Positions 19,980-36,750 of a DNA stretch of 36,750 nucleotides are shown in pieces. The notes below the pieces were generated by a model that was not told where the DNA came from, did not search any database, and saw nothing but the letters and a program-made list of their open reading frames with translations. Where the stretch lies: positions 1 to 36,750 of the forward strand of contig NZ_RDBH01000065.1 of NCBI RefSeq assembly GCF_008042145.1, written 5' to 3'. The position numbers and the translations under genes are program-made. Position 1 is the stretch's first letter; the number at the start of each line of letters is the position of its first letter. This DNA comes from Streptomyces sp. adm13(2018). Lineage in GTDB: Bacteria > Actinomycetota > Actinomycetes > Streptomycetales > Streptomycetaceae.

Positions 19980-20750
19980 TTACAGAGCGGGCGTATGCCC
20001 GTGTTCGGCGAGCGCCAGGCGGAACCGCCTCAGCTGATCGCCCGAGTGAGGGGCTGCGAACTCGCGGTACAGCCGCTCCCACTCGCGTGCGTGGTCGGAC
20101 AGCTCGAACCGCTGCCCTTTGAACACCGGCACGACGCCGCAGTGGCATCCGTCGTGGGCTTGGAAGTCGGCCGTGTCCTGCTTGTAGACGGCTCCGCGGG
20201 TCGCCAGAAGCTTGCAGAAGCTGCACGCCCCCAGCGCCGCCGAACGGGCCCAAGCGGTGGCTTGCCGGTCGCGCCGTACCGCCTCCTGGACGGTTGCGCG
20301 ACCCTGATCGACAACCAGCTTCTGGGTGACCGCTTCGGCTTTCCTCTCCGCCTGGCCCAGGCGCACCTCCAGAGGGGCGAGCTGCGCCTCCGTGGTGGCG
20401 GGGTCCTCCGGGTCACGCGGCCAGAGATCCTTGGTTGCCCAGCGCAGACTGTTCTCGACCTGCTCGTCCGGCGGCGGCTCGGCCAGCGGAACGCTGAACC
20501 GCCCCGGAGCCCGGGCGCCGATCCGTTCGGCGTCGTAGTAGTCCGCCGAGAGCGCGGATGATGCGGCACCGTACTGGTCCACCAGCGCCCGGACCGCGGC
20601 AATCCAGTCGGGGACGGTCGCCTCAAGCCGCGACGGGATGATGATGCGGCGCAGGCCCCGCACGTCGCGGGTCAGGCGGGCCGTGAGCCTGCGCTGGGCG
20701 GCCCGCTGCCGGGCGGCCGCGGGACTGACGTCAGAGACCGCTGTCGCCAT
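19980..20750 (-). CDS. MuF-like minor head protein
   Basis: This 256-aa protein follows the portal gene, overlapping it by 20 bp. The N-terminal two thirds are helical and charged (RQRAAQRRLTARLTRDVRGL; LVVDQGRATVQEAVRRDRQA). The C-terminal third carries GACSFCKLLATRGAVY and then AHDGCHCGVVPVF: two Cys-x-x-Cys/Cys-x-Cys-type pairs and a His that could bind zinc. This Cys pattern is common in MuF/VG15-like minor head proteins of actinophages, which sit at the portal inside the capsid and may be ejected. No toxin domain is fused to the C-terminus. Family assignment is firm; details of the role are not. Confidence 0.85.
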   Translation of the reverse strand: MATAVSDVSPAAARQRAAQRRLTARLTRDVRGLRRIIIPSRLEATVPDWIAAVRALVDQYGAASSALSADYYDAERIGARAPGRFSVPLAEPPPDEQVENSLRWATKDLWPRDPEDPATTEAQLAPLEVRLGQAERKAEAVTQKLVVDQGRATVQEAVRRDRQATAWARSAALGACSFCKLLATRGAVYKQDTADFQAHDGCHCGVVPVFKGQRFELSDHAREWERLYREFAAPHSGDQLRRFRLALAEHGHTPAL

Positions 20751-22158
20751 CGTCGCCCTCCGCCTCGGTGGGCTCGTCAGCGGCGTCCGCGGTCAGGGAC
20801 GCCAGCATCTGGCGCCCCTGGGCCCGGCGGCGCTCGGAGGCGACCCTCTGCCGCTGGTCCTCCGTGAGCCCCGCCATCTCCAGCGCGACCTCGGAATCGG
20901 CAGGCAGCAGGCCGGCCTGAACCATCTTCACTGCGGCGTCGGTCTGCGCGGCGATCGTCGGCGTTGCCGGGTTGCGCCACACCGTTTCGACGCGGCGCGA
21001 CGGATCGGGCGGCTCCCCTTCCCGCACCCACAGGGCCAGCCGCATCGTCGCCCGATGCGCGGCCCCGAACCGGCGTATCCGCCGCTCCGCCTTCTTCACC
21101 AGCGCCCCCTCGGCAGAGCGGATCGCGTCCGCGCTGGCCGGGTTGTCGCTGGTATAGCCGAGCATGTGCGGCGGCACCGAGAGCTGCGAAGACATGATCC
21201 GGGCGTACAAGTCGATGATCTTCGTCTGTCCGGAGGGATCGTGGGCGGTGAACGCCCCGACCGTCGGGACCTCACCGTCCTCGTCCCGCTCCAGGGCCAG
21301 AACGCGCCCGATGTACGTCTCCCACGCGCTCTTGGCGTTCCCCTCGGCGTCCTGGAACGCGGACTCACTCGCGCCCAGGATGTATCGCTGCGGGGCGCCG
21401 AAGAACTCGGCGGCCACCTCGATGCCCATCAGCCGACGGCATGCAGCGTCGGTGATGGACCGGACCTCGGGAGTGATCTCCGACTTTCCGACCCGGTCAC
21501 CGGTTCGCTGCCGGTTCGCCATGCGCAGGACCGTCACCGTGCCGAGGCCGTGCTCGTCCCGGTCGATGACCTCCCAGCCGTTCCCTCGCTGCACCGTGTA
21601 GACGTTCTGGTCAGGCAGATACAGCGTGACCAGCCGCTCGTCCGGCGTCAGGCCGAAGTCGTAGCGGTCCTGGCACTCGCGGAGCGCGTTCAGCGGCTTA
21701 CGTAGCCGGGCATCCCAGGCGAGCGTCATGTCGAGCGGAGACTCGTAAGTGATGATCGGCGGGGCGTCTGCGTCGTCCGCTGTGCCGACCGTGACGTACT
21801 CTCGGCCGTAGGTCAGGGCGTCCAGGTGGGCAAGGCTCGACTCGTCGTACAGGTCGTTCGCCTCGGCGATCTCTTCCAGCTCGGAGGAGTCCGATCCGTC
21901 GGCCCAGCGGAACGCCTCCAAGTCGAGGCGCTGCTCGAGCGCCTCGACTCCGACGCGAGGCCATCCGATGACCGTGTGCAGCGTCTTGAGCTGCGGCGGA
22001 ATGCTGATCCCAAGGTCGCGGATGACCTGCTCACCGTTGAAGTAGGCGTCCAGCAGTTCCAGCTTGAAGCGTTGCGCCAGCAGATCGGTTCGGAGAAGGG
22101 TAAGGATCTGCTGCTCGTCGTCCGACAGCCCGACCAAGGGCAGGGTGGGAATCGTCAC
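20731..22158 (-). CDS. Portal protein (SPP1 gp6-like)
   Basis: The 475-aa protein starts at GTG 22158 (MTIPTLPLVGLSDDEQQILT), overlapping the TerL stop (GTGA). Typical portal elements are LLDAYFNGEQVIRDLGISIP near the start, followed by VGVEALEQRLDLEAFRW, the wing with ITPEVRSITDAACRRLMGIE, and the stem/clip region SSQLSVPPHMLGYTSDNPAS and ADAIRSAEGALVKKAERRIR. The last part (LLPADSEVALEMAGLTEDQR) is the usual C-terminal helix. It forms the twelve-fold ring through which DNA enters and leaves. The longer frame upstream of 22158 lies within the TerL gene and is rejected. Confidence 0.92.
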   Translation of the reverse strand: MTIPTLPLVGLSDDEQQILTLLRTDLLAQRFKLELLDAYFNGEQVIRDLGISIPPQLKTLHTVIGWPRVGVEALEQRLDLEAFRWADGSDSSELEEIAEANDLYDESSLAHLDALTYGREYVTVGTADDADAPPIITYESPLDMTLAWDARLRKPLNALRECQDRYDFGLTPDERLVTLYLPDQNVYTVQRGNGWEVIDRDEHGLGTVTVLRMANRQRTGDRVGKSEITPEVRSITDAACRRLMGIEVAAEFFGAPQRYILGASESAFQDAEGNAKSAWETYIGRVLALERDEDGEVPTVGAFTAHDPSGQTKIIDLYARIMSSQLSVPPHMLGYTSDNPASADAIRSAEGALVKKAERRIRRFGAAHRATMRLALWVREGEPPDPSRRVETVWRNPATPTIAAQTDAAVKMVQAGLLPADSEVALEMAGLTEDQRQRVASERRRAQGRQMLASLTADAADEPTEAEGDDGDSGL

Positions 22159-23885
22159 CGCAGGACCACCACCCTTCCCTTGCCGCGGGCCGTGGACCGC
22201 TTCGTCCAGGCTGCCGAGTTCATGACCATCCGTCGCAGCATCCGCGCGCCGATCGCGCACACCGCCAGGTCGACCTTGCGGGCGGACTCACGGTGCTCTT
22301 TGCCGATCGTGTAGCCCCACGCGTTGGTACGGCGGCGGGCGTTGGCCACGTGCTGCCGCAGTACCTTGTGGCCGTCGTGGGTGAGCTGTCGCTCGAGGAC
22401 GTCCCGGTAGAACCTGTCCACCGCCTCCGTGAAGATCTGCTGCCTGCGCCGATCACGCATGTCCCACATCACCGCGTGCTGACCGTGCCCAGAGGTCACC
22501 GCCTTCAGCTTCAGCCGCCGGCCGTACCGCTGGGCCCAGGCGTCGATGAAACCGTCCCAGTACCGCTCGCCGTCCGCCTCGTCGAAACCGGATCCGGGGT
22601 CGGCGAAGAACGCGAGCGGCTTGTACGTGGCGAAGGCCAGATCCACGACGCCGTCGACCTCCTCGCGCGGCACCCGCCACGGCACCCCGTCAGACCAGTT
22701 CGCCGGCCGCTGCCAAACGCCCAGAGTCTGCACGTGCCCATCGGACAGGCGACAGGCCACGAGACCGGTCGCATCGTCAGACTTGGAGCCGTCGAAGAAC
22801 ACGACGATCTCGTCGCCCACCTGCAGCTCGATGCCCTCGTGCGGGCAGGCATTCCACTCGTAGGGCGCCAGGTAAGCGTCCTCCGAGGCCGTGATCTGGT
22901 TGAACCAGAAGCGTCGGCTCCGAGAGGGCGGATTGCGGACGTCCAGGATTGACGCCTTCAGCCGCTCGATGTCCAGCCAGGTCGAGTCGCCGCGAACCGC
23001 GCGCAAAGTGGGCTCGATCCAATCCTCGGACAGCTTCGCTTCGGCAGGCGCCTCGAGGCTGTCGTAGAACAGGCCGACGTCCGCGGCACGGCCGGCCTCC
23101 GCCGACTCGAACGCCTCCCGCGTCCTCTCGGCCACCGAGTCCTCGCCGGGCTCGTAGGCGTTGGTGTTCGCCAGCGTCCGCGACATGCCGTCCGCAGACT
23201 TGGTGGCGTTACGCTCGATCACCGCGGCCATCTCGTGGCCCTGATTCGCCTCCACCCAGTGGTGCGTCTCGCCAAGCGACACGAAGGTGGGTCGCCCGCC
23301 TTCCAGCGCCCGGGGCGAGGACGTAACCGCCTCAATCCGGGCCCGGCCCTTGTCGGCGTAGATGATCTCCTTGCCGAGGTCGATCCGGAACTCCTCGATC
23401 GCCCGCTTGGTCAGGATCGACGGGAACAGTGTCATCGTGTTGCGCGTCTGGTCCTGCGACACCGCCGCGATCTGCACCCAGGCCGCAGGATGCGGCTGCC
23501 CCAGGGGCTGCCCCGGCGGGACGCCCCACTCGTTCCCCTCGTCGGCGACCTGGCCGAAGCGGCAGGGGCCGACGAACTCGAAGGCGGCGTAAGTCGCAAC
23601 CAGCGGGTCCTTGCCGTGACCCTTCATCCGCTGGATCACGCCATCCCGCCACAGGAAGCGGTTCGTCGCCGGGTCCATGGCGTACCACCACAGCGTCAGC
23701 CGGGCCTGCTCGGCGGTGTAGCGCCAAGGGGCGCCCACGTAATGCTGCAGGTAGGTCGCCGTCCATGCCAGAGCCTGCCAGCCGAGTGTGTACTCGGGGA
23801 GGACGAACTTCCCGTCCCTTCCACGCCGCCAGGTCGGGCCGATCGTGAATGGAGTGACGACCTCGGGGACTTCGCCGTCAGCCAC
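22155..23885 (-). CDS. terL: Terminase large subunit
   Basis: The 576-aa motor packages DNA into the procapsid. ATPase domain: Walker A-like MKGHGKDPLVA (K88-D93) with Asp where most P-loops have Ser or Thr; Walker B-like FVSLGETHHW with E206; a coupling-type segment ANTNAYEPGEDS near 240-250. RNase H-like nuclease domain: VVFFDGSKSDD with D365, FFADPGSGFDEADG around 425, and a late acidic residue in VDLAVCAIGARM. GTG at 23885 is chosen because the protein then starts before the first helix and overlaps TerS by 8 bp, as is usual. Together with TerS and the nearby HNH gene it suggests cos-type packaging, which is an inference. Confidence 0.93.
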   Translation of the reverse strand: MADGEVPEVVTPFTIGPTWRRGRDGKFVLPEYTLGWQALAWTATYLQHYVGAPWRYTAEQARLTLWWYAMDPATNRFLWRDGVIQRMKGHGKDPLVATYAAFEFVGPCRFGQVADEGNEWGVPPGQPLGQPHPAAWVQIAAVSQDQTRNTMTLFPSILTKRAIEEFRIDLGKEIIYADKGRARIEAVTSSPRALEGGRPTFVSLGETHHWVEANQGHEMAAVIERNATKSADGMSRTLANTNAYEPGEDSVAERTREAFESAEAGRAADVGLFYDSLEAPAEAKLSEDWIEPTLRAVRGDSTWLDIERLKASILDVRNPPSRSRRFWFNQITASEDAYLAPYEWNACPHEGIELQVGDEIVVFFDGSKSDDATGLVACRLSDGHVQTLGVWQRPANWSDGVPWRVPREEVDGVVDLAFATYKPLAFFADPGSGFDEADGERYWDGFIDAWAQRYGRRLKLKAVTSGHGQHAVMWDMRDRRRQQIFTEAVDRFYRDVLERQLTHDGHKVLRQHVANARRRTNAWGYTIGKEHRESARKVDLAVCAIGARMLRRMVMNSAAWTKRSTARGKGRVVVLR

Positions 23886-24312
23886 CGATCGAGGATCGGT
23901 AGTCGGCGATGGCAGTGACGGAAGCCGGTACTGCCTTGACCGCTGGCTGTCGCTCCAGCTCGATCCGGGCCCGGCGCCGGTCGCCCTCGGTCGTCAGCAG
24001 GCTGCCCATCACACTGTTCAGGGCAGCGACGAGCTGCCCGTTCGGAGCGCGATCGGTGCTCAGGATCCGGGACATGAGCTCGGCCGCGTACCGGGCCGTC
24101 GCCCAGTCGGACGCCTGGTAGAAGGCAGCCTGCCCGGACTGCTGCAGCGAGAGGTACCAGTCCGTGGCGATGTCGTGCCAGTTCGGATCGGGTTCAGGGA
24201 GGGCTGGCACGTTCACCGGCCCGGAAGGGGCCTGCGCGATGGCCGGCCCGTCGTCCTTGTTGCGGCGGCGGCGCTCAGCGCTGCGCTTGGGGATGGGTCC
24301 GCGATCACCCAT
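23878..24312 (-). CDS. terS: Terminase small subunit
   Basis: The 144-aa protein starts MGDRGPIPKRSAERRRRNKD; the 'GxRGPxPK' opening is the standard form of actinophage TerS proteins (P27-like). Helices WHDIATDWYLSLQQSGQAAF and ASDWATARYAAELMSRILST follow, then LVAALNSVMGSLLTTEGDRR and a short end with VTAIADYRSSIGG. It recognises the packaging site and activates TerL. ATG at 24312 has GGAGG 5 bases upstream; the extra residues of the longer frame are not conserved-looking. The 200 bp before it are non-coding and structured. Confidence 0.9.
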   Translation of the reverse strand: MGDRGPIPKRSAERRRRNKDDGPAIAQAPSGPVNVPALPEPDPNWHDIATDWYLSLQQSGQAAFYQASDWATARYAAELMSRILSTDRAPNGQLVAALNSVMGSLLTTEGDRRRARIELERQPAVKAVPASVTAIADYRSSIGG

Positions 24313-28369: not shown

Positions 28370-29290
28370 CTATGTCCGTGGCGTGCCTGCGCTCCAGGCG
28401 GGTGTGCGCGGCCGCCGCGCGGTCCACAGGCTGTGGGGTGTTCCGGCTGCGACCCTGTCGATGCCGTCCCCGCCTGCCGCGGTGAGCGGTCTCGCGGTGC
28501 TGGTCTCGATGGCGACGCCGAGGACCGAGGTCTTGGCGCCTGTCAGCAGCTGGGCGGTCTCGGTGGCTGTGGCTGCCGTGAGGCTGCGGCTGATGGCGCC
28601 GGTGAGGGCCTGAGCCGTCTCGACCGCGGCCGCAGCGGTGAGGGCCGCCATCTTGGCGCCGGCCACGGACTGGGCGGTGTCAGCCTCCAGCGTGGCGCCG
28701 AGCGAGCCCGCCTTGCTGCTGGCCAGCCCCTGCGCGTTATCGGCCTCGGCGGCGATGCCGAGCGTCACCCCAGCGGTCACGTCCGCGGCAGCGAAGTCGT
28801 CGAAGCGGATTGCGGCGGTGGAGACCGACCGGAGGCCGACGCTGGTGCCGCTTGCGACAGCCGTGTCGGTGACGGACACCCGCTGCACGCCGTTGACGAA
28901 GGCCTTGATCGTCGACCCGACGGCCTGGACCTTCGCAACGTTGCCCGGGGCCGCGGCTGCCGCGTAGGAGCCGATGGCCGTGAACGTGCCGCTGACGACG
29001 CTGAAGAGCGTCCACTCGCTGCCGTCGTTCCGCCACAGGTACCCGTTGCTGATGTTGCTGTTCCCGCGGCACCACACCCCGTGGCTGGCCGCGGTGGTGG
29101 CTGCGATGGTGACCTGCGCCGAGTGGTCGCTGCTGTCCATGGGCCCGGCCGCGCGGAGGATGATCGTGCCGCCGTCCGAGCCCGGGCTGAGTTGGTTGGA
29201 GGCGATCGCCCAGAAGCCCGATACCTGCACCCAGCCGGCGCCCAAGTTGCTGCTGTCGGCGCGGTTGAAGTCGTCAGTGAAGCTGGCCAC
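28370..29290 (-). CDS. LamG-like virion protein with 20-residue repeats
   Basis: The 306-aa protein begins MASFTDDFNRADSSNLGAGW, the entry to a concanavalin/LamG-like beta sandwich: GFWAIASNQLSPG, YLWRNDGSEWTLFSVVSGTF, STIKAFVNGVQRVSVTDTAV and AIRFDDFAAADVT. This 'DDFNRADS.LG..W' form is common in actinophage and secreted proteins that bind glycans. From L177 on come five tandem 20-residue repeats with consensus near L-x-A-x-x-E-x-x-x-A-Q-x-L, then a short Pro/Arg tail. GTG at 29290 has GGGAGG 6 bases upstream. A surface-exposed binding role is likely; whether it is on head or tail is not known. Confidence 0.78.
   Translation of the reverse strand: MASFTDDFNRADSSNLGAGWVQVSGFWAIASNQLSPGSDGGTIILRAAGPMDSSDHSAQVTIAATTAASHGVWCRGNSNISNGYLWRNDGSEWTLFSVVSGTFTAIGSYAAAAAPGNVAKVQAVGSTIKAFVNGVQRVSVTDTAVASGTSVGLRSVSTAAIRFDDFAAADVTAGVTLGIAAEADNAQGLASSKAGSLGATLEADTAQSVAGAKMAALTAAAAVETAQALTGAISRSLTAATATETAQLLTGAKTSVLGVAIETSTARPLTAAGGDGIDRVAAGTPHSLWTARRPRTPAWSAGTPRT
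28469..28762 (-). repeat. Five tandem 20-aa repeats (60-bp units)
   Basis: Residues 177-274 of the LamG-like protein hold five head-to-tail 20-residue units: LGIAAEADNAQGLASSKAGS, LGATLEADTAQSVAGAKMAA, LTAAAAVETAQALTGAISRS, LTAATATETAQLLTGAKTSV and a shortened LGVAIETSTARPLT. The Ala-Gln (Arg in the last) and the following Leu/Val are nearly invariant. Confidence 0.85.
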
Positions 29291-29323: not shown

Positions 29324-29770
29324 TCACGCGGTGGAGGTCGCGCGGTAGAAGTCGGCGACCGTCAGCTGGAAGTTATTGCCGTCAGGGGTCATCGTGACGT
29401 CGTGCTTCGTCAGCGGGATCAGGTCGGCGTCCGTCCCGGTCGTGGTGTCAGGGTCGTAGCAGATGACCACGGCGCCGATCGGGTTGCCAGTCGCGGCAGT
29501 CCAGGTGATGGCGCTGCAGTTCAGAGCAACCCGATCGAGCGTGTCGTCGACGGTGACCGTGACGCCCGAGAGCGTCTTGCGGCCCATGCTGGTCTGCTCG
29601 TTGGACGTGCCTGCGAGGAGGCTGGCGAGGTCGTCGTAGTCGCGGATCACGGCGTCCGTGGCGAGGCCCGTCGCTTCGAGGGGGACGGCGATCAGTGCGT
29701 CGTTGGCGGCCGGGAGGGCGGCGAGCGCCGCGACGCGTCCCAGGGCGGTGTTGAAGACGAGGTTCGACAT
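29324..29770 (-). CDS. Putative virion protein (148 aa)
   Basis: The protein opens MSNLVFNTALGRVAALAALP and continues ALIAVPLEATGLATDAVIRD, then YDDLASLLAGTSNEQTSMGR, TVTVDDTLDRVALNCSAITW and ICYDPDTTTGTDADLIPLTK before a Phe/Tyr-containing end. The 'N-x-ALG-x-x-x-x-ALP' start and the 'D-x-D-D-x-A-x-LLAGT-x-NEQT' box resemble a structural protein often placed near the fibre genes in Streptomyces phages. ATG at 29770 has AGAGGAG 6 bases upstream. It precedes the LamG-like protein by 33 bp. A capsid-decorating role is possible but not shown. Confidence 0.7.
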   Translation of the reverse strand: MSNLVFNTALGRVAALAALPAANDALIAVPLEATGLATDAVIRDYDDLASLLAGTSNEQTSMGRKTLSGVTVTVDDTLDRVALNCSAITWTAATGNPIGAVVICYDPDTTTGTDADLIPLTKHDVTMTPDGNNFQLTVADFYRATSTA

Positions 29771-29795
29771 CGTCGGCTCCTCTCGCGTGGGTTGG

Positions 29796-30038
29796 TCAGG
29801 CGGCGCGGGCCCGCTGCGGTGTGCGCTTGTAGCCGGCGGCGAGTGCCTCTATCTCGGGGAGCGCGTACATGGTCTTGTACTCGTGGCCTTGGCCGGAGTA
29901 GTGGCGGGGGTCGCCCTTGTAGCGGGCGACTTTCCCGCGGGAGGCCCACTTCCGGATGACGGGCTCGGGGACGCCGGTGGCGGCGGCGGCTTCGTGGGCG
30001 TAGACGAGATCTTTGGGGTAGAGCTCGGTCGGGTCCAC
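29796..30038 (-). CDS. Small helix-turn-helix protein, first gene of the virion operon
   Basis: This 80-aa protein starts at GTG 30038 (AGGGGG 4-5 bases upstream). MDPTELYPKDLVYAHEAAAA is followed by TGVPEPVIRKWASRGKVARY, a MerR/excisionase-like helix-turn-helix with a wing (GDPRHYSGQGHEYKTMYALP), then a helix EIEALAAGYKRT. 'PxSxIRxWxxRGKI' is the standard recognition-helix form of such winged-helix proteins. Because the unit is preceded by a terminator and the whole late block follows it, the protein may control late transcription; a TerS-like or recombination-factor role is an alternative. The longer upstream frame runs through the terminator and is discarded. Confidence 0.78.
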   Translation of the reverse strand: MDPTELYPKDLVYAHEAAAATGVPEPVIRKWASRGKVARYKGDPRHYSGQGHEYKTMYALPEIEALAAGYKRTPQRARAA

Positions 30039-30058
30039 GGTGCCCCCTGACAAGCAGA

Positions 30059-30084
30059 AAGCCCCCGGCGGATGCTGGGGGCTT
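30059..30084. terminator. Hairpin terminator between transfer-like and virion blocks
   Basis: AAGCCCCC (30059-30066) pairs with GGGGGCTT (30077-30084), and with one G-U and two further pairs the stem reaches 11 bp around a GGAT loop. On the minus strand it lies after the gene ending at 30163 and before the HTH gene, so it marks the border between two transcription units. Confidence 0.7.
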
Positions 30085-30124
30085 GAAGTAGCTGCGGACA
30101 CACTGGTATCCGGATGGGGGCAGT

Positions 30125-30151
30125 GTGACATACGGCTGCTCGGGCTGACAA
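30125..30151 (-). promoter_or_regulatory. Two GTGACA-type motifs upstream of the HTH gene
   Basis: The plus strand has GTGACA at 30125-30130 and CTGACAA at 30145-30151, 20 bp apart, in the 124-bp gap that must contain the promoter of the virion operon. The hexamer is the one repeated in the array at 31781-31922. A -35-like TTGTCA on the minus strand is present at the second site, but a well-spaced -10 was not found. Confidence 0.3.
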
Positions 30152-30162
30152 CTACTGATCTG

Positions 30163-30432
30163 CTATGCGTCTTCTCGCTGCGTTCGCGCGAGGGCGGCGG
30201 TGCATCGGCCGCAGAGGTCTCCGGTCTCGTCACTGGGCCCGATGCAGAGGTGGCTGCCGCAGTAGTAGCCGCCGCAGCCGTGCTCGTCGCCGCCGGGTGT
30301 CTGGCCGCAGAGGTGGGCGAGTCCGCGGTCGATGTCGGCATCGCAGCCAGGCTCTTCACAGGTGGCGTCGATGCCGTACCCGGCCTCGATGGTCTCGCCG
30401 TTGCGCTGGATGGTGTAGCTGGCGTATCCCAT
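30163..30432 (-). CDS. Cys-rich small protein, probable zinc-binding
   Basis: The 89-aa protein begins MGYASYTIQRNGETIEAGYG and contains TCEEPGCDADIDRGLAHLCG, EHGCGGYYCGSHLCIGP and DLCGRCTAALAR. Eight to ten Cys with His residues in CxxxxC, CxxxYYC, HLC and CxxC spacing indicate one or two structural zinc sites. Such proteins are common on Streptomyces plasmids, AICEs and some phages, near traB- or repSA-like genes. ATG at 30432 has GAGGAG 6 bases upstream. It is the last gene of the transfer-like block before the terminator. No enzymatic role is seen. Confidence 0.72.
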   Translation of the reverse strand: MGYASYTIQRNGETIEAGYGIDATCEEPGCDADIDRGLAHLCGQTPGGDEHGCGGYYCGSHLCIGPSDETGDLCGRCTAALARTQREDA

Positions 30433-30459
30433 GGTCTTCTCCTCTGTTTGCGTTGGGTC

Positions 30460-31038
30460 TTACCCGTTTGATGCCTGGGTGGCTTCTCGAATGAGCTGAA
30501 GAGCTTCGGCCTGTGTCCGCCCGGGTTGGTCGTTCCATGCGTGGTAGTCGGCTTCGATCCCCCGCCGCCGGAGCACGTTCTGCATGGCCTGCCCGGCTGC
30601 TTCGGCGGTCTCCTCGTCCCCGTAGCCGAGCCGGTAGAGCACGGCTTGGGCGCCGAGGATGCAGCGTGCGCCTCCGCGAGATCGGAGTCCGCCGCGGTGG
30701 TGGCCGTACTGCTCGAGTACGAGCGCGGTGAGTTCGAGGTGCTGCTGGACGGTGACGGGTCGGCCGGCGCCGTGGAGGCGCCGGGCGGGGGTGAGGGCGA
30801 GGGCCCAGTCGGGGATGATGCGCCACCAGCGTGCGGGGGCCTGGAGGACGGGCGCCGCAGTGACGAGCTCGGCCTCCGGCACGGCGAGTGCTTCGGCGAC
30901 GAGCTGGGCGGTGGTCTTGGTGACGAGCGGGTGCGCGGTCTTCGGGGCCTGCTGGGCGAGGTAGGCCTCGATGTCGGCGATGAGGGTGGCCGCGTCGACT
31001 GTCAGTTCGGCGGGGCGGGTGGCGGTCGACGCGGCCAT
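30460..31038 (-). CDS. DUF6197-like protein
   Basis: The 192-aa product has a variable N-terminal half (MAASTATRPAELTVDAATLI ... RRLHGAGRPVTVQQH) and a C-terminal domain LELTALVLEQYGHHRGGLRS, GARCILGAQAVLYRLGYGDE and AEAAGQAMQNVLRRRGIEAD, then WNDQPGRTQAEALQLIREAT. The 'L-x-x-YG-x-x-x-G-x-x-x-x-x-GxxC-x-LGA' box followed by a helix and 'WND..GRT..E' is the DUF6197 pattern, a family abundant in Streptomyces mobile DNA with unknown function. ATG at 31038 has AAGGAG 8 bases upstream. It lies between paralogous small genes and the Cys-rich gene, in one operon. Confidence 0.75.
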   Translation of the reverse strand: MAASTATRPAELTVDAATLIADIEAYLAQQAPKTAHPLVTKTTAQLVAEALAVPEAELVTAAPVLQAPARWWRIIPDWALALTPARRLHGAGRPVTVQQHLELTALVLEQYGHHRGGLRSRGGARCILGAQAVLYRLGYGDEETAEAAGQAMQNVLRRRGIEADYHAWNDQPGRTQAEALQLIREATQASNG

Positions 31039-31075
31039 GGGGTGTCTCCTTCGATGCGGTCGTTGGTGGGGGTGG

Positions 31076-31471
31076 TCAGCGGCTGGCGGCGGTGCGGTAG
31101 CGGCGGGAGAGGTCGTCGGCCTGCTGCCTGGCGTGGAGGTCGGCGACGGCCTTGGCGGCGCGCTGGGCGTCTTCGGTGTAGGCGTCGTGGGAGTCGCGGG
31201 CGCCGAGGTTGGGCAGGTGGCTGGGCCGCTGGGTGAAGATCTTGCGCTCCTTGCGGAGGAGGCTCTGCGCGGTGGTGACGGCGCCGTTGGTGGGCGACTC
31301 GACCTCGCGGTTGCCCATGAGGCTGGTCGTGTCGGTGACGATCCACTCGCTGTAGGTGGGGCCGCGGTCGTAGTGCTCGTTGATGACGTACAGGTGGTCG
31401 CCGGGCTTGATGCTGCGAAGGAGCTTCTTCTCGTCGCCGCGGGTGGCTTCGTAGGAGGACTGGAGTCCCAT
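31076..31471 (-). CDS. Hypothetical protein, paralogue of the upstream gene
   Basis: The 131-aa protein begins MGLQSSYEATRGDEKKLLRS and contains IKPGDHLYVINEHYDRGPTY, SEWIVTDTTSLMGNREVESP and LLRKERKIFTQRPSHLPN, then a helical, basic end. The stretch 'xxPGDxLYxI...Y..S-x-WIVTD' and 'LLRK.RKIFTQ' match the upstream gene product (31497-31736): the same GD-x-LY-x-I, IVTDD-x-S and IFTQ landmarks in the same order. ATG at 31471 has AAAGGA 7 bases upstream. The family is unknown to me; tandem copies suggest a surface or DNA-binding beta module. It is read in the same direction as the ftsK-like gene. Confidence 0.65.
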   Translation of the reverse strand: MGLQSSYEATRGDEKKLLRSIKPGDHLYVINEHYDRGPTYSEWIVTDTTSLMGNREVESPTNGAVTTAQSLLRKERKIFTQRPSHLPNLGARDSHDAYTEDAQRAAKAVADLHARQQADDLSRRYRTAASR

Positions 31472-31496
31472 GTCGGTTCCTTTCGGGTTGGGGGTC

Positions 31497-31736
31497 AGGG
31501 GTGGGGGGCTGGGTGAAGATGCCGCCGTGGCGGGAGAGGAGTTGCGGGAGGCTGATGGAGCCTGGGCCGGTGGTGGTGTCGGCGGGGCGGACGAGGTGGC
31601 TGCCGAAGGCGGCGCTGATGTCGTCGGTGACGATGTACTCGCCGCCGATGGCGTAGAGCCGGTCGCCGGGCTGTACGTCGTTGGCGAGGTCTGCGGCGTC
31701 GGCTCGGGTGCGCTGGTAGTAGGGCTTGAGGGGCAT
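31497..31736 (-). CDS. Hypothetical protein, 3' end unclear (paralogue of next gene)
   Basis: From ATG at 31736 (AGGAG 9 bases upstream) the frame reads MPLKPYYQRTRADAADLAND, VQPGDRLYAIGGEYIVTDDI and SLPQLLSRHGGIFTQPP. It shares GD-x-LY-x-I, IVTD and LL...IFTQ with the downstream gene product. After about residue 80 the frame stays open to 31002 but reads as Arg/Pro-rich shadow of the downstream gene. One extra C in the six-C run at 31503-31508 would put a TGA at 31495-31497, right after the shared IFTQ landmark. The end given here is therefore the last residue I trust. Either the run has lost a base, or an overlapping extension is really made. Confidence 0.5.
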
Positions 31737-31770
31737 GTCCGGGTCTCCTCTCAGGTCGGGATCTTCTTCA

Positions 31771-31799
31771 CATATAGGGCGTGACAGGGCCGGTGACAG
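31771..31799 (-). promoter_or_regulatory. Promoter: CTGTCA-17-TATATG
   Basis: On the minus strand a -35 CTGTCA (31799-31794) is separated by exactly 17 bases from a -10 TATATG (31776-31771), upstream of the gene at 31736. The -35 and the spacer each coincide with one GTGACA/TGTCAC motif of the array at 31781-31922, so a protein bound there should block or modulate RNA polymerase. Confidence 0.6.
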
Positions 31800-31922
31800 C
31801 CCATGACAGTGCAGGTCAGGGGGCTGCGAGGGGTGTTGACGGGCCGGTGACATGTCACGGGCTGGAGGTCGGTGTCAGCGGCTTGTCACGGGGTCTGTCA
31901 ACGCCGTGACCTGCGATGTCAC
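31781..31922. repeat. Array of TGTCAC/GTGACA motifs around a palindrome
   Basis: Plus-strand motifs: GTGACA at 31781 and 31793, ATGACA at 31803, the perfect 12-bp palindrome GTGACATGTCAC at 31847-31858, then GTGTCA at 31872, TGTCAC at 31884, TGTCA at 31896 and TGTCAC at 31917. Copies left of the palindrome point one way and those right of it the other way. The array fills the 200-bp gap between the end of the ftsK-like gene and the next gene. It may be an operator cluster, or a DNA-loading site for the translocase, or both. Confidence 0.75.
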
Positions 31923-31940
31923 CGGCTCGCCAGGGGCGAG

Positions 31941-33983
31941 TCAGGCGTCTTCGTCCGTGAGTTGGAGCAGCGTGGCCAGCAGGTAGCCCTTGTGCCGGTC
32001 GGGGCCGTCCCGCCACTGCTTGGTCTTCATGTCGACGTTGGGGGCGATCTGTGCAGCCTGCTTGCGGAGGGCCTCCTGGAAGCGCGCCATGGCCTTGGCC
32101 GGCTCCTCGTCGTCCTGGGGCGCCCACGTCTCGGAGGCGGAGGAGACGTACTCGTAAATCTCCTCGCTGGTCATGCGCTCGGGGTCACTGCTGGCGGTGA
32201 AAGCGAGCCGAGCGAGCTCGACGGCTTCGGGGAGAGCCGTGCGGGGCTTGACCGTGTGGAGGTCGTCGAAGGTGACCCCGGCGGCCTGAAGGGAGATGTC
32301 ATCGATCCACGGGCGGCCAGCTGCGGCCCGGGCTGCTGCACGCTCCTTGCCCTCAGCGGGGGTCATGGAGATGAACTTGTGGATGAGCGGGTCGTGCTGG
32401 CCGCCGCCCATGATGTACGCCTTGCCGGCGTCGGCCGGGTCCTCGCCCTGGGCGGGGTGGAGGCGGTCGGGCCTGTAGCCGTTGGCGCCGGCGCCTGCAC
32501 CGAAGACCTGGACAATGTCCTGGTGTCGGGCCGGTCCGACAATCTTGAGGGCGATGCTGTCGGCGATCGCGGCACCGATCGAGTCCTTCGTCGCTTCCTG
32601 GGCGGCGAGACCGACCTGGACGCGTGCTTTACGCCCGACGCGGAGGATCGCGACGACTAGGGCCTTGGCTTTCGGGGACAGCTGCGGGTACTCGTCGATG
32701 AGGGCGACGATCGCCGGGTACTCGTGGGACGGGATCCAGTTGTCGCCCATACCGAGGTGGCCGAGGAGCGTCGCCCGGGCCTTGGCGATCTTGAGGAGCT
32801 TCTCCAGGACGGCTTCGATGATGTGCATCTGGTCCGCGCCGACTACTCGCACTCCGACGGCTTCGGCGAGGGGTTCGAGGCCGTTGCCGCCGGGGTCGAG
32901 GTCGATGACGACGGTGTCCTCGCATGCGGTGAGGACATCGCCGATGGACCTCATGGTGACGGACTTCCCGCCGCCGGATGAGGCAATGACGATGAAGTGC
33001 AGCCCGAGGAATGACAGTTCCGTGGGCTGCCCGTCCATTCGGAGGGCGAGCAGGGCCCGGTCCCGCAGCCGACCACTGTTGGGCGCCCGGTCGGGCAGGG
33101 CCGGCATCTTGACGAACGGATCGCCTTCGACGAGGCGAAGGGTCGCGCGGGCCCGGCTGGTACGGAGCGGCTGGCAGAGGAGGCCGTCGACGGGCAGGTC
33201 GAGGGGGGTCTCCAGGTCGCCGGCCTTGGCGATGAGGTCGGCGGGGGTGCCCTTCTTGAGGCGGACGTTGATCTCCCAGCCCCAGTCGTAGCGGCGCCCG
33301 GCCTCGACTTCGGCGACCGCGATTCCTTCGGAGACGAGGGCGCGGCGGACGCATTCGGCGGCTTCGGTGCGGCTGGTGGCGTCGGCGATCGGGAACGGCT
33401 CGCCGTCAGCCGAGAGGATCTCGATGCGACCGGGGTCGTCTTCGGCAGCGATGACGCTGGGCTGGCCGCGCCAGGCGCCGTAGCCGATGGTGACGAGGCC
33501 GAGGAGGAGGCTGGTCCACACTCCGCCGGTAGCGACGGCGACGCCGCCGGCGGTTCCGGTGGTGGCCATCCAGGCGCCGGTCTTGGCGCCGTAGACGAGC
33601 CGGTGGTGCTTGTAGGCCTCGCGGAGCCGGACGACGTTACGGGTGGCGGCCTGCTCGGCTTCGGCGTTGCCCCTGGCGGCCTTCCGGTCGGCGCGGGCGG
33701 TGCGGATCATCTGGGGGTAGTCGTCGCGGTAGCCGTCGACCCAGCGGGCGGCGAGGCGCCAGTAGCCGCGGGCGGCCCAGGGCAGGTAACCCCAGTTGGT
33801 GGCGGCGTGCTGGCGGGCGAGCCGGGCGCGTTCGCCGGCGGACAGGACCCATGCAGGCCGGGTGGCGAGCTCGGCGCCCTGGTGCTCGACGACCGTGCCC
33901 TCGACGGCCGGGAGGGTGTCGTCCTTGACGAGGGTGAGCGGGGGGCGCTCGGGAGTCTGCTGGGTGTGGGCTGCGGTGGTCAC
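31941..33983 (-). CDS. FtsK/SpoIIIE-type DNA translocase (TraB-like)
   Basis: The 680-aa protein has a basic N-terminal part, a hydrophobic segment at about 138-170 (WTSLLLGLVTIGYGAW), a middle domain (about 185-315), then a RecA-like motor: Walker A ASSGGGKS (334-341), VVIDLDP (358-364), Walker B IVALIDEY (425-432) and GLAAQEATKDSIGAA (458-472). The C-terminus (MTSEEIYEYVSSASETW and what follows) could be a winged-helix DNA-reading domain. In Streptomyces plasmids and AICEs such a single protein (TraB/TraSA) moves double-stranded DNA between hyphae. GTG at 33983 overlaps the DUF2637 gene stop (GTGA) and has GAGGAG 5 bases upstream. It is far from any cell-division gene, so a mobile-element role is favoured. 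Confidence 0.88.
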   Translation of the reverse strand: MTTAAHTQQTPERPPLTLVKDDTLPAVEGTVVEHQGAELATRPAWVLSAGERARLARQHAATNWGYLPWAARGYWRLAARWVDGYRDDYPQMIRTARADRKAARGNAEAEQAATRNVVRLREAYKHHRLVYGAKTGAWMATTGTAGGVAVATGGVWTSLLLGLVTIGYGAWRGQPSVIAAEDDPGRIEILSADGEPFPIADATSRTEAAECVRRALVSEGIAVAEVEAGRRYDWGWEINVRLKKGTPADLIAKAGDLETPLDLPVDGLLCQPLRTSRARATLRLVEGDPFVKMPALPDRAPNSGRLRDRALLALRMDGQPTELSFLGLHFIVIASSGGGKSVTMRSIGDVLTACEDTVVIDLDPGGNGLEPLAEAVGVRVVGADQMHIIEAVLEKLLKIAKARATLLGHLGMGDNWIPSHEYPAIVALIDEYPQLSPKAKALVVAILRVGRKARVQVGLAAQEATKDSIGAAIADSIALKIVGPARHQDIVQVFGAGAGANGYRPDRLHPAQGEDPADAGKAYIMGGGQHDPLIHKFISMTPAEGKERAAARAAAGRPWIDDISLQAAGVTFDDLHTVKPRTALPEAVELARLAFTASSDPERMTSEEIYEYVSSASETWAPQDDEEPAKAMARFQEALRKQAAQIAPNVDMKTKQWRDGPDRHKGYLLATLLQLTDEDA

Positions 33984-35266
33984 GACTGCTCCTCGGAGGC
34001 GGCGTTGGACTGGCGCTTGGCGTCGGCCGCGAGGGCTCGGGCGACCGGGTGAAACGCGGGGGTGTCACCGCGCTTACGGCGGGGCGGCATGGGCCTGTAC
34101 GAGGAGCGTCGCGACGGGGCCTTCACTTGGTTCACACGCTGGGCGTTCGTGGCCTTGACGGGCTTCTCGCCGGGGGCTTCGGAGCGGGCTGCGATGACGC
34201 GCCTGGCGGCGATGTTGCGACCTCGGATGATGTCGACAGACTCGGCCGGGTCGGTGCCCTCGATGTCGTTGTGCGCGCGCTTCCAGACAGCCTCGGTGAC
34301 GGCCGTCTCGCCGGTCGCGGCAGCGAGCTTCACGGCGTGCTGCCAGACCTTCGGGAAGTACTCGGCGCGCTGCCTCGCGAGTTCCTGCGCCTGTTCCTCT
34401 GCGACCTTGCGCGCCTCCTCCTTAGCGGCGGCTTCCTTCGCCTCCGCGACCGCCCGCTCGGCGGCCTCCGTGCGGGCCGCCTTCTTCTCGGCGCGGCGCT
34501 GGCGCCAGGTGAGGGCACCGTCGCGGCGGGCAATCCGGCCGTGCTCATGGAGATCCCACATGCCGGGCCCGGCGATCGAGGCGAGCGCGGTGCCGAAGGC
34601 TGTGGCGGCATCGAAAGCGTCGAGGCCGTGGACGATGTTGATCGTGGCGGCGGTGAGCGCGCCACCCCAGGCGACAAGCCGGTAGTGCCAGTGCGGGCGG
34701 CCGGCGGTGACTGCGGCGGCGGCACCGACGAGGGCGACGAGGGCGATGACCTCAATGAAGACGGGGGCGACGAGGAGGTACTCGGATCCGGGCTTGTAGA
34801 AGGCGGCCATCTGGACGGGGAGAGCCACGGTCGCGCACAGAGCGTAGAAGCCCTTGGCGGTGTTCCTCCATCGGCCGCTGGCGGTCTCGACGGCCTGTAC
34901 CGTATCGGCCTCGGCCTGCTTGGTGGCTTCGGCCTGCTCGCGCTCTTCAGCGGCGGCCCGCTCTTCGGCTTCCCGCTTCCGGTTCGCCTCGGCGATCTTG
35001 GCGAGCTCGGTGGCCTTCTCCCGCTCGAAGCGGAGCGCGGCCCGCTCGTTGGCGAGGCGCTGCCGCTCGGCCTCCTCGGTCGCCTTGATGCGGACGGCGT
35101 CGGCTTCGGCTTCGGCTTTGATGCGGCGCTCTTCGATCTCGGCGGCGGTCAGGGCGCGGATCTTCTCGGCCTCGGCCTCGGCGATACCGGCCCTCGCCCA
35201 CGACTCGGCGTGCGAGGTCTGGGGCAGCTGGTGCCCGTTGACCTTCTCGATGGGCGTGACGCTCAC
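33980..35266 (-). CDS. DUF2637 membrane/coiled-coil protein
   Basis: This 428-aa protein has a long N-terminal charged coiled coil (about 25-128; AEAEKIRALTAAEIEERRIK and similar), four membrane segments at about 138-156, 163-188, 195-214 and 218-235, a second coiled coil (about 250-300) and a basic tail. The membrane core with 'WHYRLVAWGGALTAATINI' matches DUF2637, found next to FtsK/TraB genes on actinobacterial plasmids and AICEs and thought to aid plasmid spread. GTG at 35266 is preferred over a TTG nine bases earlier because AAGGGA then has correct spacing. The stop overlaps the translocase start, so both are made together. Confidence 0.83.
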   Translation of the reverse strand: MSVTPIEKVNGHQLPQTSHAESWARAGIAEAEAEKIRALTAAEIEERRIKAEAEADAVRIKATEEAERQRLANERAALRFEREKATELAKIAEANRKREAEERAAAEEREQAEATKQAEADTVQAVETASGRWRNTAKGFYALCATVALPVQMAAFYKPGSEYLLVAPVFIEVIALVALVGAAAAVTAGRPHWHYRLVAWGGALTAATINIVHGLDAFDAATAFGTALASIAGPGMWDLHEHGRIARRDGALTWRQRRAEKKAARTEAAERAVAEAKEAAAKEEARKVAEEQAQELARQRAEYFPKVWQHAVKLAAATGETAVTEAVWKRAHNDIEGTDPAESVDIIRGRNIAARRVIAARSEAPGEKPVKATNAQRVNQVKAPSRRSSYRPMPPRRKRGDTPAFHPVARALAADAKRQSNAASEEQS

Positions 35267-35287
35267 GGTGATCAATCCCTTCGGGGG

Positions 35288-35506
35288 TTAAGTGCGGGTG
35301 CGCTGTGGCGGGATGGTGGTGGTCTTGGCGGAGTGGGCGATGCGCTGTTCGTCGAGGAGTCCGTCGAAGGTGACGGCTGCCGCGGCGAGGCCGACGAGGG
35401 CGAGGCGGGTGAGGAGCGGGGCCTGGAGCCCGAAGACCCAGGCGAAGCCGGCGAAGAGGAGAAAGACGCGAGCCCGGGTCAGGCCGATCAGCAGGCCGAG
35501 GTTCAC
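35288..35506 (-). CDS. Small membrane protein (72 aa), Spd-like
   Basis: The protein opens at GTG 35506, overlapping the TGA of the DUF6919 gene (GTGA). It has two hydrophobic segments, about 2-8 with 14-26 (RVFLLFAGFAWVFGLQAP) and 31-45 (RLALVGLAAAAVTFDGLL), and a short polar end. Small two-segment membrane proteins encoded beside tra genes in Streptomyces plasmids are called spread (Spd) proteins; they help intramycelial movement and share little sequence. The name is therefore by context. It is followed 21 bases later by the DUF2637 gene. Confidence 0.68.
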   Translation of the reverse strand: MNLGLLIGLTRARVFLLFAGFAWVFGLQAPLLTRLALVGLAAAAVTFDGLLDEQRIAHSAKTTTIPPQRTRT

Positions 35507-35994
35507 CGGACTACTCCAGCCAGTGCGGGCCACAGGCGGTCGTCGCGACCCCAGACCGGGTCGTAGATGTGGATGCTGGCGCCGTGCTCCCGCAGCTCGC
35601 GGAGGGCACGGTGGCCGACACCGCGCCACATGGTGTGGACGTAGTCGCGGCGCCAGCGCCAGCCACCGAATGTGGTGAACGGGCGACCGTTCTCCTCGGT
35701 GATCACGTGCTGCTGCTTCGGCCAGCCGCGAACGACGGTGAATCCCTGGCCCTGAAGGGCAAGCAGCCGGCCGAATAGCGGACCGTGGTCGTGGACGATG
35801 CCGTCGACCGACGCTCGCTGGCGGTAGCGTCCGTCAACCTCGCCGGGCTGGGAACCGACGGTGACGAACCCGGCCCGATTGAGGGTTACCAGGACCGGCA
35901 CGAGGTGCCGGGCGCCGTTCTCCTCCTCCGCGCCGAACTCATCGGACAGGTAGCCGGGCCAGTTCGGGACCCGGCCTTCCAGCCAGCCGGCCAT
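35503..35994 (-). CDS. DUF6919-like protein
   Basis: The 163-aa product reads MAGWLEGRVPNWPGYLSDEF, ARHLVPVLVTLNRAGFVTVG, SQPGEVDGRYRQRASVDGIV and ends with HGASIHIYDPVWGRDDRLWP. 'WLEGR-x-x-x-x-PGY', 'L-PVL-x-x-LNRAGFVT-x-x-SQPGE' and 'RQRA-x-V-G' are the key features of DUF6919, a family seen on Streptomyces plasmids and AICEs. Family members usually have about 20 more residues before WLEG; here the ATG at 35994 has no ribosome site and lies inside another frame (36056-35886). A lost base that detached the N-terminus is possible. Its first two thirds (35702-36000) recur exactly at the right window edge. Confidence 0.7.
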   Translation of the reverse strand: MAGWLEGRVPNWPGYLSDEFGAEEENGARHLVPVLVTLNRAGFVTVGSQPGEVDGRYRQRASVDGIVHDHGPLFGRLLALQGQGFTVVRGWPKQQHVITEENGRPFTTFGGWRWRRDYVHTMWRGVGHRALRELREHGASIHIYDPVWGRDDRLWPALAGVVR

Positions 35995-36000
35995 GTTCTG
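35702..36000. repeat. 299-bp exact repeat, internal copy
   Basis: Every base from 35702 to 36000 is found again at 36452-36750, offset by exactly 750. The copy covers the N-terminal 98 codons of the DUF6919-like gene. Base 35701 (G) and 36451 (C) differ, marking the left junction; the right end cannot be judged because the window stops. Confidence 0.95.
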
Positions 36001-36056
36001 TCGGCGTCGGTGGGCTGGTAGCCCTTCGGTTCCGGCTCGCGGCTGAACAGGCCCAT
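35886..36056 (-). CDS. Small ORF overlapping the DUF6919-like gene
   Basis: ATG at 36056 has an excellent ribosome site (AAAGGAG, 6 bases) and the start reads MGLFSREPEPKGYQPTDADR, a natural-looking beginning. After residue 20 the frame enters the DUF6919 coding region in another phase and turns into Arg/Ser/Pro shadow, ending at 35886. Either a short 56-aa protein is made with a junk tail, or an indel near 35995-36000 has split what was once one gene. I favour a real start and a disturbed end. Confidence 0.45.
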   Translation of the reverse strand: MGLFSREPEPKGYQPTDADRTWPAGWKAGSRTGPATCPMSSARRRRTAPGTSCRSW

Positions 36057-36078
36057 GGCGGGCTCCTTTCGGATGGGG

Positions 36079-36276
36079 TCAGTCCTGGCGGCCGGGGGTC
36101 GGCTCGGCGCCGGGGAGCATGGCCGCGATCTGGAAGCCGGCCCAGGTGATGACGACGCCGAAGATGAGCCCGGCCTGCGACTCGGTGATGTCGGCGGCCT
36201 GCGCGAGGACCGGGGCGAGGTGCACGCCAACCAGGCCGAGGCCGAGGGCGATGAGGAGGGAGACGGCGATGCGCAC
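36079..36276 (-). CDS. Small membrane protein (65 aa)
   Basis: It opens at GTG 36276 with AGGAG 7 bases upstream and reads MRIAVSLLIALGLGLVGVHL, then APVLAQAADITESQAGLIFG and VVITWAGFQIAAMLPGAEPT. Two membrane segments at about 3-24 and 34-53 are joined by a short loop, and the end is polar. Like the 72-aa protein at 35288 it resembles Spd-type spread proteins of Streptomyces plasmids by size and topology; a holin-like role is an alternative but the place, far from the lysis genes, speaks against it. It lies 10 bases after the gene that ends at 36286. Confidence 0.65.
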   Translation of the reverse strand: MRIAVSLLIALGLGLVGVHLAPVLAQAADITESQAGLIFGVVITWAGFQIAAMLPGAEPTPGRQD

Positions 36277-36285
36277 GGCGGGCTC

Positions 36286-36744
36286 CTAGCGGGGGTCGGG
36301 GGTGTCGAGGACGTGCTGGCGGTAGCGGAGTGCGGCGGCGAGCGCGGCGTCGCATTCGTCGCTGCCGCCGTGTCGGTCGGCTTCGGCCTTGCCGGCCTGG
36401 GTGGCGGCGACGATCTCGTCGGCTGCGGCGAGGGCCTGGTCGCGGGTGACCATCACGTGCTGCTGCTTCGGCCAGCCGCGAACGACGGTGAATCCCTGGC
36501 CCTGAAGGGCAAGCAGCCGGCCGAATAGCGGACCGTGGTCGTGGACGATGCCGTCGACCGACGCTCGCTGGCGGTAGCGTCCGTCAACCTCGCCGGGCTG
36601 GGAACCGACGGTGACGAACCCGGCCCGATTGAGGGTTACCAGGACCGGCACGAGGTGCCGGGCGCCGTTCTCCTCCTCCGCGCCGAACTCATCGGACAGG
36701 TAGCCGGGCCAGTTCGGGACCCGGCCTTCCAGCCAGCCGGCCAT
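36286..36744 (-). CDS. ORF fused at a repeat junction (DUF6919 N-part plus small protein)
   Basis: Read from ATG 36744, the first 97 residues equal those of the DUF6919-like protein, ending WPKQQHV; then the sequence switches at 36451/36452 to MVTRDQALAAADEIVAATQA and a helical end, QHVLDTPDPR, stopping at 36286. The second part is itself a plausible 55-aa protein with its own ATG at 36453, whose three bases span the repeat junction. No ribosome site precedes that ATG in this arrangement. The fusion is therefore most likely a product of the duplication or of misassembly at the window edge, and the native gene is probably 36286-36453 with different upstream DNA. Confidence 0.45.
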   Translation of the reverse strand: MAGWLEGRVPNWPGYLSDEFGAEEENGARHLVPVLVTLNRAGFVTVGSQPGEVDGRYRQRASVDGIVHDHGPLFGRLLALQGQGFTVVRGWPKQQHVMVTRDQALAAADEIVAATQAGKAEADRHGGSDECDAALAAALRYRQHVLDTPDPR

Positions 36745-36750
36745 GTTCTG
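36452..36750. repeat. 299-bp exact repeat, copy at window edge
   Basis: This is identical to 35702-36000 up to the last base of the window. The copy may continue beyond the edge, in which case the unit is a tandem duplication of at least 750 bp holding the DUF6919 5' part and three small genes. Confidence 0.95.

Follow-up and report, generated by a model that had tools for sequence, protein, structure and literature searches.

A putative TraB-type translocase with a clt-like repeat array linked to virion genes in an apparent prophage lineage of Streptomyces

The translocase gene and its repeat array

The stretch of DNA analysed here, referred to as the window, comprises 36,750 nucleotides of Streptomyces sp. 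adm13(2018) (GCF_008042145.1, NZ_RDBH01000065.1, forward strand 1-36,750), which are bases 1-36750 of contig C309 in genome G000 (7.92 Mb, 346 contigs; genomes, contigs and loci carry our own handles G, C and L). It holds a cluster of siphophage virion genes and, 5' (upstream) of this cluster and on the minus strand like it, a module resembling the DNA transfer genes of Streptomyces plasmids, with an FtsK/SpoIIIE translocase gene immediately followed by a repeat array that resembles clt, a site needed for plasmid transfer. The initial annotation had placed virion genes and a plasmid-type DNA-translocation module on one element and the same strand, and this was borne out by matches to PHROGs and by the recurrence of the junction in other genomes. 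The translocase and its array have the following features.

31941-33983, minus strand: FtsK/SpoIIIE (TraB-type) DNA translocase, 680 amino acids (phrog_12531, E 1.8e-110)
31941-32261, minus strand: C-terminal 106 amino acids of the translocase, a predicted winged helix and proposed reader of the array (AlphaFold2 predicted local distance difference test, pLDDT, 84)
31782-31921, minus strand: candidate clt, a TGACA array of five direct then four inverted copies, immediately 3' of the translocase gene
31847-31858, minus strand: dyad centre of the array, GTGACATGTCAC, the meeting point of direct and inverted copies
31907-31914, minus strand: GCAGGTCA, first arm of an inverted repeat within the array, invariant in a 7-sequence alignment
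31811-31818, minus strand: TGACCTGC, second arm of the same inverted repeat, from the same alignment

The motor was assigned through PHROGs and through a profile of the translocase family, which matched the PDB entries 2iuu (FtsK, E 3.5e-10) and 6o1w ("DNA translocase coupling protein", E 7.8e-7); FtsK_SpoIIIE was absent from the Pfam matches of the window translocase. The 204-bp gap at 31737-31940 contains nine TGACA/TGTCA words where 0.18 are expected, and any other 205-bp stretch of the window contains at most three. When arrays were scored as the best direct-then-inverted 5-mer in 220 nucleotides and compared with 200 dinucleotide shuffles, the score of the window was reached by none of the shuffles (0/200). 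Among 43 translocase loci, which are non-independent, 29 outscored all 200 shuffles, including all four pFP1-type plasmids, and in L076, L082 and L083 the best-scoring word differs from the TGAC core. As a control, 656 genes of the window and six relatives were scored in the same way, and a score of at least 7 was found for 28 of them, namely all seven translocases and 21 of the 649 other genes. Of these 21 words, 18 consist of G and C only and three contain A or T, as do all seven translocase words. Moreover, in seven close relatives the TGAC/GTCA core columns are more conserved than the spacers (0.93 vs 0.67 identical; 10,000 permutations, p 1e-4, with neighbouring columns non-independent). 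In the closest complete relative, G015, GTGACG/CGTCAC occurs eight times at the same place and at most three times in any other equal-sized stretch of the prophage.

A blastn search of the window array against plasmids and phages gave no match, as expected for motifs that are short and swapped. The array strand folds with a z score of -2.2, and a hairpin in the array is not claimed because four of 200 shuffles fold equally well.

The arrangement is closest to that described for pWTY27, a 14.3-kb plasmid with an FtsK-type TraA of 688 amino acids, whose transfer needs, besides TraA, a 175-bp clt comprising the last 16 bp of traA and the following 159 bp (PMC3583192). As described there, this clt has four TGACACC direct repeats as well as inverted repeats and is bound by TraA in electrophoretic mobility shift assays and footprints, while TraB of pSVH1 forms hexameric rings and reads 8-bp repeats via helix alpha3 of its C-terminal winged helix (PMC3583192); 8-bp repeats in clt are also described in PMC4170104. 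The motif of the window array is nearly TGACACC and lies at the same place, the 3' end of the translocase gene, whereas clt function is experimental for pWTY27, to which the window is likened here by description rather than by domain comparison. The clt-like array, which the initial annotation had not mentioned, thus adds sequence-based evidence for a putative TraB-type role of the translocase.

Co-variation of the array motif and the C-terminal winged helix

The C-terminal domain, folded alone by AlphaFold2, has the order H-E-H-H-E-E-H, and VIA-align 2 matched it to generic winged helices only (best Z 5.8). Foldseek gave no match for this domain at E 0.001 or below, and its profile matched nothing below E 0.69 among PDB sequences. 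The full-length model of the translocase is poor (pLDDT 52) and was taken as a hint only.

Motifs were labelled by eye for 29 of the 43 loci, three of them with a question mark, which gave 406 pairs; left out were L046, L049, L051, L103 and L105-L108, in which the array is unclear or the protein truncated, L008, whose protein is short, and the near relatives L076, L083, L094, L095 and L101. Sharing of the motif core was predicted by similarity of the last 75 amino acids with an area under the curve (AUC) of 0.997, compared with 0.86 for the motor and 0.79 for the N-terminus, and sharing of the whole 5-mer with values of 0.97, 0.82 and 0.78, respectively; these values are descriptive because the pairs are non-independent. 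Individual pairs point in the same direction. The motors of L078 and L087 show no detectable similarity to those of L039, L040 and L045 (scores 34-37), while the C-termini of the two sets are 45-59% identical and all five loci share TGCTC. Against L060, L078 and L087 have motors that are 60% identical, dissimilar C-termini (scores 47-51) and a different motif (TGCTC vs CGGAC). The array motif thus appears to track the C-terminal winged helix of the translocase rather than its motor. The translocase of L087 had no match in the phage collection.

Within the closest group, the wing of the window and of L073 (G249) is four residues longer. With the invariant GCAGGTCA/TGACCTGC pair excluded, nine of ten copies in the window and 10 of 11 in L073 read TGACA, while TGACG is found in L080 (G015; 8/8), L037 (G387; 10/11), L074 (G371; 6/7), L077 (8/10) and L075 (G138; 5/5); motifs are mixed in the more distant L082, L084, L085, L086 and L097. 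Over residues 301-540 the window translocase is 94-96% identical to G015/G371 but 79-80% identical to G249, residues 181-300 being uninformative on this point; over the last 40 amino acids the identities are 58% to G015/G371 and 92% to G249. The array follows the C-terminus, with 73% identity to G015, 68% to G371 and 91% to G249. These comparisons suggest that the window arose by natural recombination, the last 40 codons and the array having been transferred as a unit.

Companion genes, virion genes and recurrence of the junction

The translocase gene is accompanied by the following genes.

36079-36276, minus strand: small membrane protein, 65 amino acids, two hydrophobic segments
35503-35994, minus strand: DUF6919 protein (PF21897, E 1.5e-26)
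35288-35506, minus strand: small membrane protein, 72 amino acids, two hydrophobic segments, Spd-like by size and place only
33980-35275, minus strand: DUF2637-like protein, 431 amino acids (BLAST E 2e-7 to a DUF2637-annotated pFP1 protein)
31076-31471, minus strand: small protein after the array
30460-31038, minus strand: DUF6197 protein (PF19698, E 4.4e-22)

The translocase and the DUF6919 protein upstream of it were both correctly named in the initial annotation, and the latter has relatives on the plasmids pFP1 (41% identity) and NBC_00285 (39%). The DUF2637 label of the 431-residue protein, which has a single hydrophobic segment and whose gene overlaps the translocase start by 4 bp, agrees with its pFP1 match, but Pfam DUF2637 itself gave no match; the annotated pFP1 protein is likewise sub-threshold in Pfam DUF2637. 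As to the membrane proteins proposed as Spd-like, their small size and hydrophobic segments fit the label, but there is no further basis for it. The 72-residue protein is 52-77% identical in three relatives and the 65-residue protein 71% identical in G249, while the gene after the array has two tandem relatives at this place in G015 and G249. No module protein matched NCBIfam at its cut-offs.

The virion genes lie downstream, all on the minus strand, and encode terminase, portal, protease, capsid, neck, tape measure and structural proteins; the placement of packaging, head and tail genes on one strand was thus confirmed by PHROGs. Ten proteins of this region were scanned against PHROGs, two without a match.

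29796-30038, minus strand: MerR-like helix-turn-helix protein, 80 amino acids, between the module and the virion genes (phrog_2474, E 1.7e-5)
29324-29770, minus strand: conserved phage protein of unknown function (phrog_26662, E 2.3e-61)
28370-29290, minus strand: virion structural protein (phrog_2804, E 1.9e-10)
22155-23885, minus strand: terminase large subunit (phrog_9, E 6.7e-70)
20731-22260, minus strand: portal protein (phrog_104, E 8.8e-137)
19980-20750, minus strand: head maturation protease (phrog_193, E 3.9e-38)
19335-19925, minus strand: unassigned gene between protease and capsid
18366-19322, minus strand: major capsid protein (phrog_10, E 1.2e-43)
9755-14221, minus strand: tape measure protein (phrog_4197, E 1.9e-137)

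A survey of 392 Streptomyces genomes (portal at E 1e-100 or better, translocase at E 1e-40) found the portal in 16 genomes, and in 12 of these, the window's own included, a translocase shares the contig and strand of the portal and lies 8-23 kb upstream of it. The translocase is present at 36 places in 33 genomes, and 22 of these places, which include twin copies of G367, are within 25 kb of a terminase (phrog_9) or portal (phrog_104), each time upstream and on the same strand; among the remaining 14, several come from fragmented assemblies in which virion genes are absent or on separate contigs, so that no judgement is possible for them. The search for the same junction in other strains, as suggested earlier, was thus positive. 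Beside the translocase of G387 and G381 there is a terminase but no phrog_104 portal, and therefore the module seems, from gene content, to travel among virion types. In G367, contig C111 carries portal, terminase and translocase twice (near 60,684-79,363 and 150,565-169,244), about 89.9 kb apart and with identical scores, which may represent a tandem prophage, a phage-plasmid dimer or an assembly duplication.

Since the junction between virion genes and translocase recurs in other genomes, it is not an assembly join, and a chimera at 30,000-31,000 was rejected on the same ground, the identical junction being present elsewhere. As to the hairpin said to separate the two modules, the sequence near 30056-30080 is rich in G+C and hairpin-like, but a terminator and promoter scan of 29500-32200 detected neither kind of element. 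At the other end, an exact 299-bp direct repeat (35702-36000 and 36452-36750) lies in the DUF6919 gene, and its second copy abuts a run of 100 N (36751-36850), for which reason it was set aside as biology. Single places in G015 and in G249 each align to both copies, and the second DUF6919 reading frame (36286-36744), which holds the 299-bp copy, is probably a scaffold artefact together with the repeat.

An integrated relative and the mode of maintenance

G015, a single 8.2-Mb contig, is the closest complete relative of the window (portal 90%, translocase 86% identity) and is collinear with it, in pieces, from 384 to 36000. Its element is bounded by an exact 60-bp direct repeat at 2281108 and 2343119, the second copy of which overlaps a tRNA-Val(TAC) gene (2343132-2343205), and beside the first copy lies a 430-residue integrase-like gene with a weak Pfam integrase domain (E 0.001). 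The element, with the order integrase, regulators, early genes, transfer module and virion genes, is a 62-kb integrated chromosomal prophage. In addition, predicted viruses of 58.9, 61.8 and 62.1 kb in IMG/VR have translocases 67-86% identical to that of the window.

Contig C309 extends past the run of N to 49,375, with early phage genes: two for recombination proteins, RecT (PF03837, E 1.5e-36) and one with a YqaJ recombinase domain (PF09588, E 1.3e-25), one for an HNH/helicase protein and a divergent one of NUDIX type. The rightward extension proposed earlier thus yielded phage recombination genes but no Rep, Par or integrase gene noticed up to 49,375. RepSA, RepAM and Prim-Pol were not noticed among the genes called in this extension or in G015, where not every protein was scanned, and neither was ParAB, which was seen only on two related plasmids of about 90 kb. 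Plasmid or AICE (actinomycete integrative and conjugative element) maintenance is therefore not supported, with no Rep or Par noticed in the extension and the G015 relative being integrated. Because G015 has an integrase-like gene, attachment (att) repeats at tRNA-Val and a collinear gene order, the window element is probably neither a plasmid nor an AICE but a member of a lineage of integrating prophages; an integrase and att repeats were not seen on contig C309, which stops before the place matching that of G015.

Elsewhere in G000, the G015 integrase has weak best matches only (best E 4.3e-14, 24-32% identity). C344:59971-60089 matches the tRNA-Val att region at 97%, and a separate exact 44-bp copy of part of this region, which may be the distal att of a different integrated element, lies at C34:806693-806736; neither could be tied to contig C309. 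Contigs C300 and C166 contain pieces 73-93% identical to the early region of the G015 prophage, and from this similarity a second related prophage may be present in G000.

Comparison with plasmids, phage-plasmids and phages

The plasmids pFP1, pSLUN2, NBC_00285 and WAC 01438, which are mobilizable with MOBF in PLSDB, carry translocases 44-51% identical to that of the window over the matched part, with a DUF2637-annotated protein upstream in three of the four, DUF6919 relatives on two and a dyad array (CTCTA) immediately 3' of the translocase in all four. They differ in their C-terminal domain and motif, and the parts of them that were read have no annotated virion genes (26 of 63, 26 of 47, 33 of 39 and 37 of 46 kb, respectively). 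Their CTCTA/TAGAG arrays (L008-L011: WAC 01438, pSLUN2, pFP1 and NBC_00285) are candidate clt sites of these plasmids, judged by motif and place.

The virion genes have other relatives. On NBC_01005 and NBC_01369, two ParA/ParB plasmids of about 90 kb, the cluster genes of window 6427-24312 are 47-78% identical with their order kept, and two further genes (5138-6430) are 36-38% identical. The idea of a phage-plasmid thus holds for these virion-gene relatives, but they carry different ATPases in the translocase slot, without an array: one of 717 amino acids, with 24.5% identity to the translocase of the window across 163 amino acids (E 4.6e-5), and one of 757 amino acids that is weakly HerA-like (E 6e-4, below Pfam's cut-off). 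In contrast, the translocase of the window lineage is of the TraB type and is followed by an array, and the element is chromosomal in G015. Besides ParAB and virion genes, the NBC_01005 and NBC_01369 plasmids (L012-L015) carry a type III polyketide synthase (PhlD) gene. The PhlD gene of NBC_01369 is common to 34 Streptomyces plasmids (E 1e-80 or better), of which 19 of 20 among the matches listed are 85-102 kb, and this suggests a large phage-plasmid family around a shared PhlD gene. As pSLE1 is described as carrying a type III polyketide synthase gene resembling one of pZL12 (PMC4487206), these plasmids look like the general kind of pZL12. The latter is named, in a title given in PMC4487206, as a Streptomyces plasmid-phage with a plasmid and a lytic phage cycle, and is mentioned as having transfer genes (PMC3583192). 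pZL12 therefore resembles the window in combining virion and DNA-transfer genes on one Streptomyces element, a likeness drawn by description rather than by sequence comparison.

An integrase, a tRNA att site and an FtsK-type Tra protein on one element are also the marks of AICEs, for which a survey is described as requiring a Rep of the RepSA, RepAM or Prim-Pol type (PMC3218068). The present elements differ in having virion genes and in the absence of a noticed Rep of these types, where not every protein was scanned. Karimac-type Streptomyces phages carry an FtsK-like translocase whose matched part is 47-51% identical among the matches listed (40 of 89 records), but these phages are of about 130 kb and have no 3' array in L105-L107 (Karimac, Tomas and MulchMansion), where the next gene follows directly; they may use the same motor family differently.

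Proposed mechanism and alternative explanations

The best reading, which we consider moderately probable, is that of a temperate phage equipped with a TraB-type translocase and a clt of its own, from which we infer mycelial transfer. A temperate siphophage lineage would have acquired a unit in the style of conjugative plasmids, consisting of translocase, DUF2637-like protein, small membrane proteins, DUF6919 protein and clt-like array. Because motor, winged helix, motif and place of the array match the pWTY27/pSVH1 scheme, the C-terminal winged helix is proposed to read the TGACA repeats and load the motor at the array, while a membrane-anchored N-terminal part might tether the translocase at the septum or hyphal contact. 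The motor would then carry uncut double-stranded phage DNA, whether excised circle or replicative form, across to an adjacent compartment or hypha, and the prophage could thereby spread or be inherited without lysis; given the dyad of the array, a pair of motors facing opposite ways could each pull one arm of the circle. A broader claim is put forward tentatively and is more doubtful: that a widespread class of Streptomyces prophages has two routes of spread, by virions and by virion-free passage of double-stranded DNA across septa or hyphal contacts through TraB-type motors on dyad clt sites, with wing and array exchanged as a specificity cassette that would determine which DNA is transferred.

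Several observations weigh against this reading. The N-terminus of the window translocase has one weak hydrophobic segment (residues 146-164), the small membrane proteins appear Spd-like only in size and hydrophobic segments, and the FtsK gamma domain is absent among the fold matches listed for the C-terminal domain. Of the 43 loci, 14 fall short of beating all shuffles (two reached by 1/200, four by 2-3 and eight without excess), and those without array excess in this test are L046, L049, L051, L052, L108 and L105-L107. No linked translocase was found at E 1e-40 in four of the 16 portal genomes (G074, G157, G167 and G287), and the slot ATPases of NBC_01005 and NBC_01369 lack an array. Furthermore, motifs were labelled by eye and pairs are non-independent, and the co-variation argument is weakened because C-terminus and array adjoin, so that one crossover carries both. 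Adjacency does not explain, however, why nearly all copies in an array change together, and joint movement is also what would be expected of a specificity cassette.

Orienting sequences of FtsK/SpoIIIE change direction around a terminus, and the orientation of the array likewise flips at its dyad. Together with the FtsK/SpoIIIE homology of the translocase and the related motor of Karimac-type phages, which is annotated only as FtsK-like, this resemblance would suit a role in segregation rather than conjugation, in which translocase and array clear phage DNA from septa as they close, moving it into spores or compartments within one mycelium, so that excised or replicating phage would not be lost. 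We regard this as rather unlikely, as the companion genes and the 3' position of the array match pFP1-type plasmids, a prophage integrated in the chromosome, like that of G015, has no need of separate segregation, and the clt of pWTY27 is described as needed for transfer (PMC3583192). The array might otherwise be a replication origin built of iterons, or an operator of another phage protein, with its link to the C-terminus a matter of hitchhiking: iteron origins of Streptomyces plasmids such as pWTY27 are described as mixing direct and inverted repeats as well (PMC3583192), and the C-terminal codons adjoin the array and so recombine jointly with it. Translocases of two unrelated motor types, however, are followed on their 3' side by arrays, in prophages as well as in plasmids, the motif matches the C-terminus in pairs without other motor similarity, and pFP1 is described as having its own rep/iteron locus for replication (PMC3583192), which makes this explanation improbable. 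That the module is a captured relict or moron without a present role appears very improbable; the slot is variable, with other ATPases on two phage-plasmids and no linked translocase in the four portal genomes named above, but no stop codon interrupts the matched stretch at any of the 36 translocase places, and array cores are conserved above spacers.

Implications

Elements with both virions and plasmid transfer are already known in principle, as pZL12 illustrates. What appears to be new here is that integrating temperate phages repeatedly carry a putative TraB-type motor with a clt-like site, and that motif and reader domain seem to be exchanged together; a phage- or prophage-borne clt was not found in the literature searched, which covered titles and the openings of abstracts, with most subscription journals outside coverage. 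Dyad arrays 3' of the translocase offer a simple way to propose clt sites. The pairs in which domain and array are swapped together suggest a natural specificity code for TraB-type translocases, relating wing residues to bases, and TraB-clt specificity is directly testable by exchanging wing and array.

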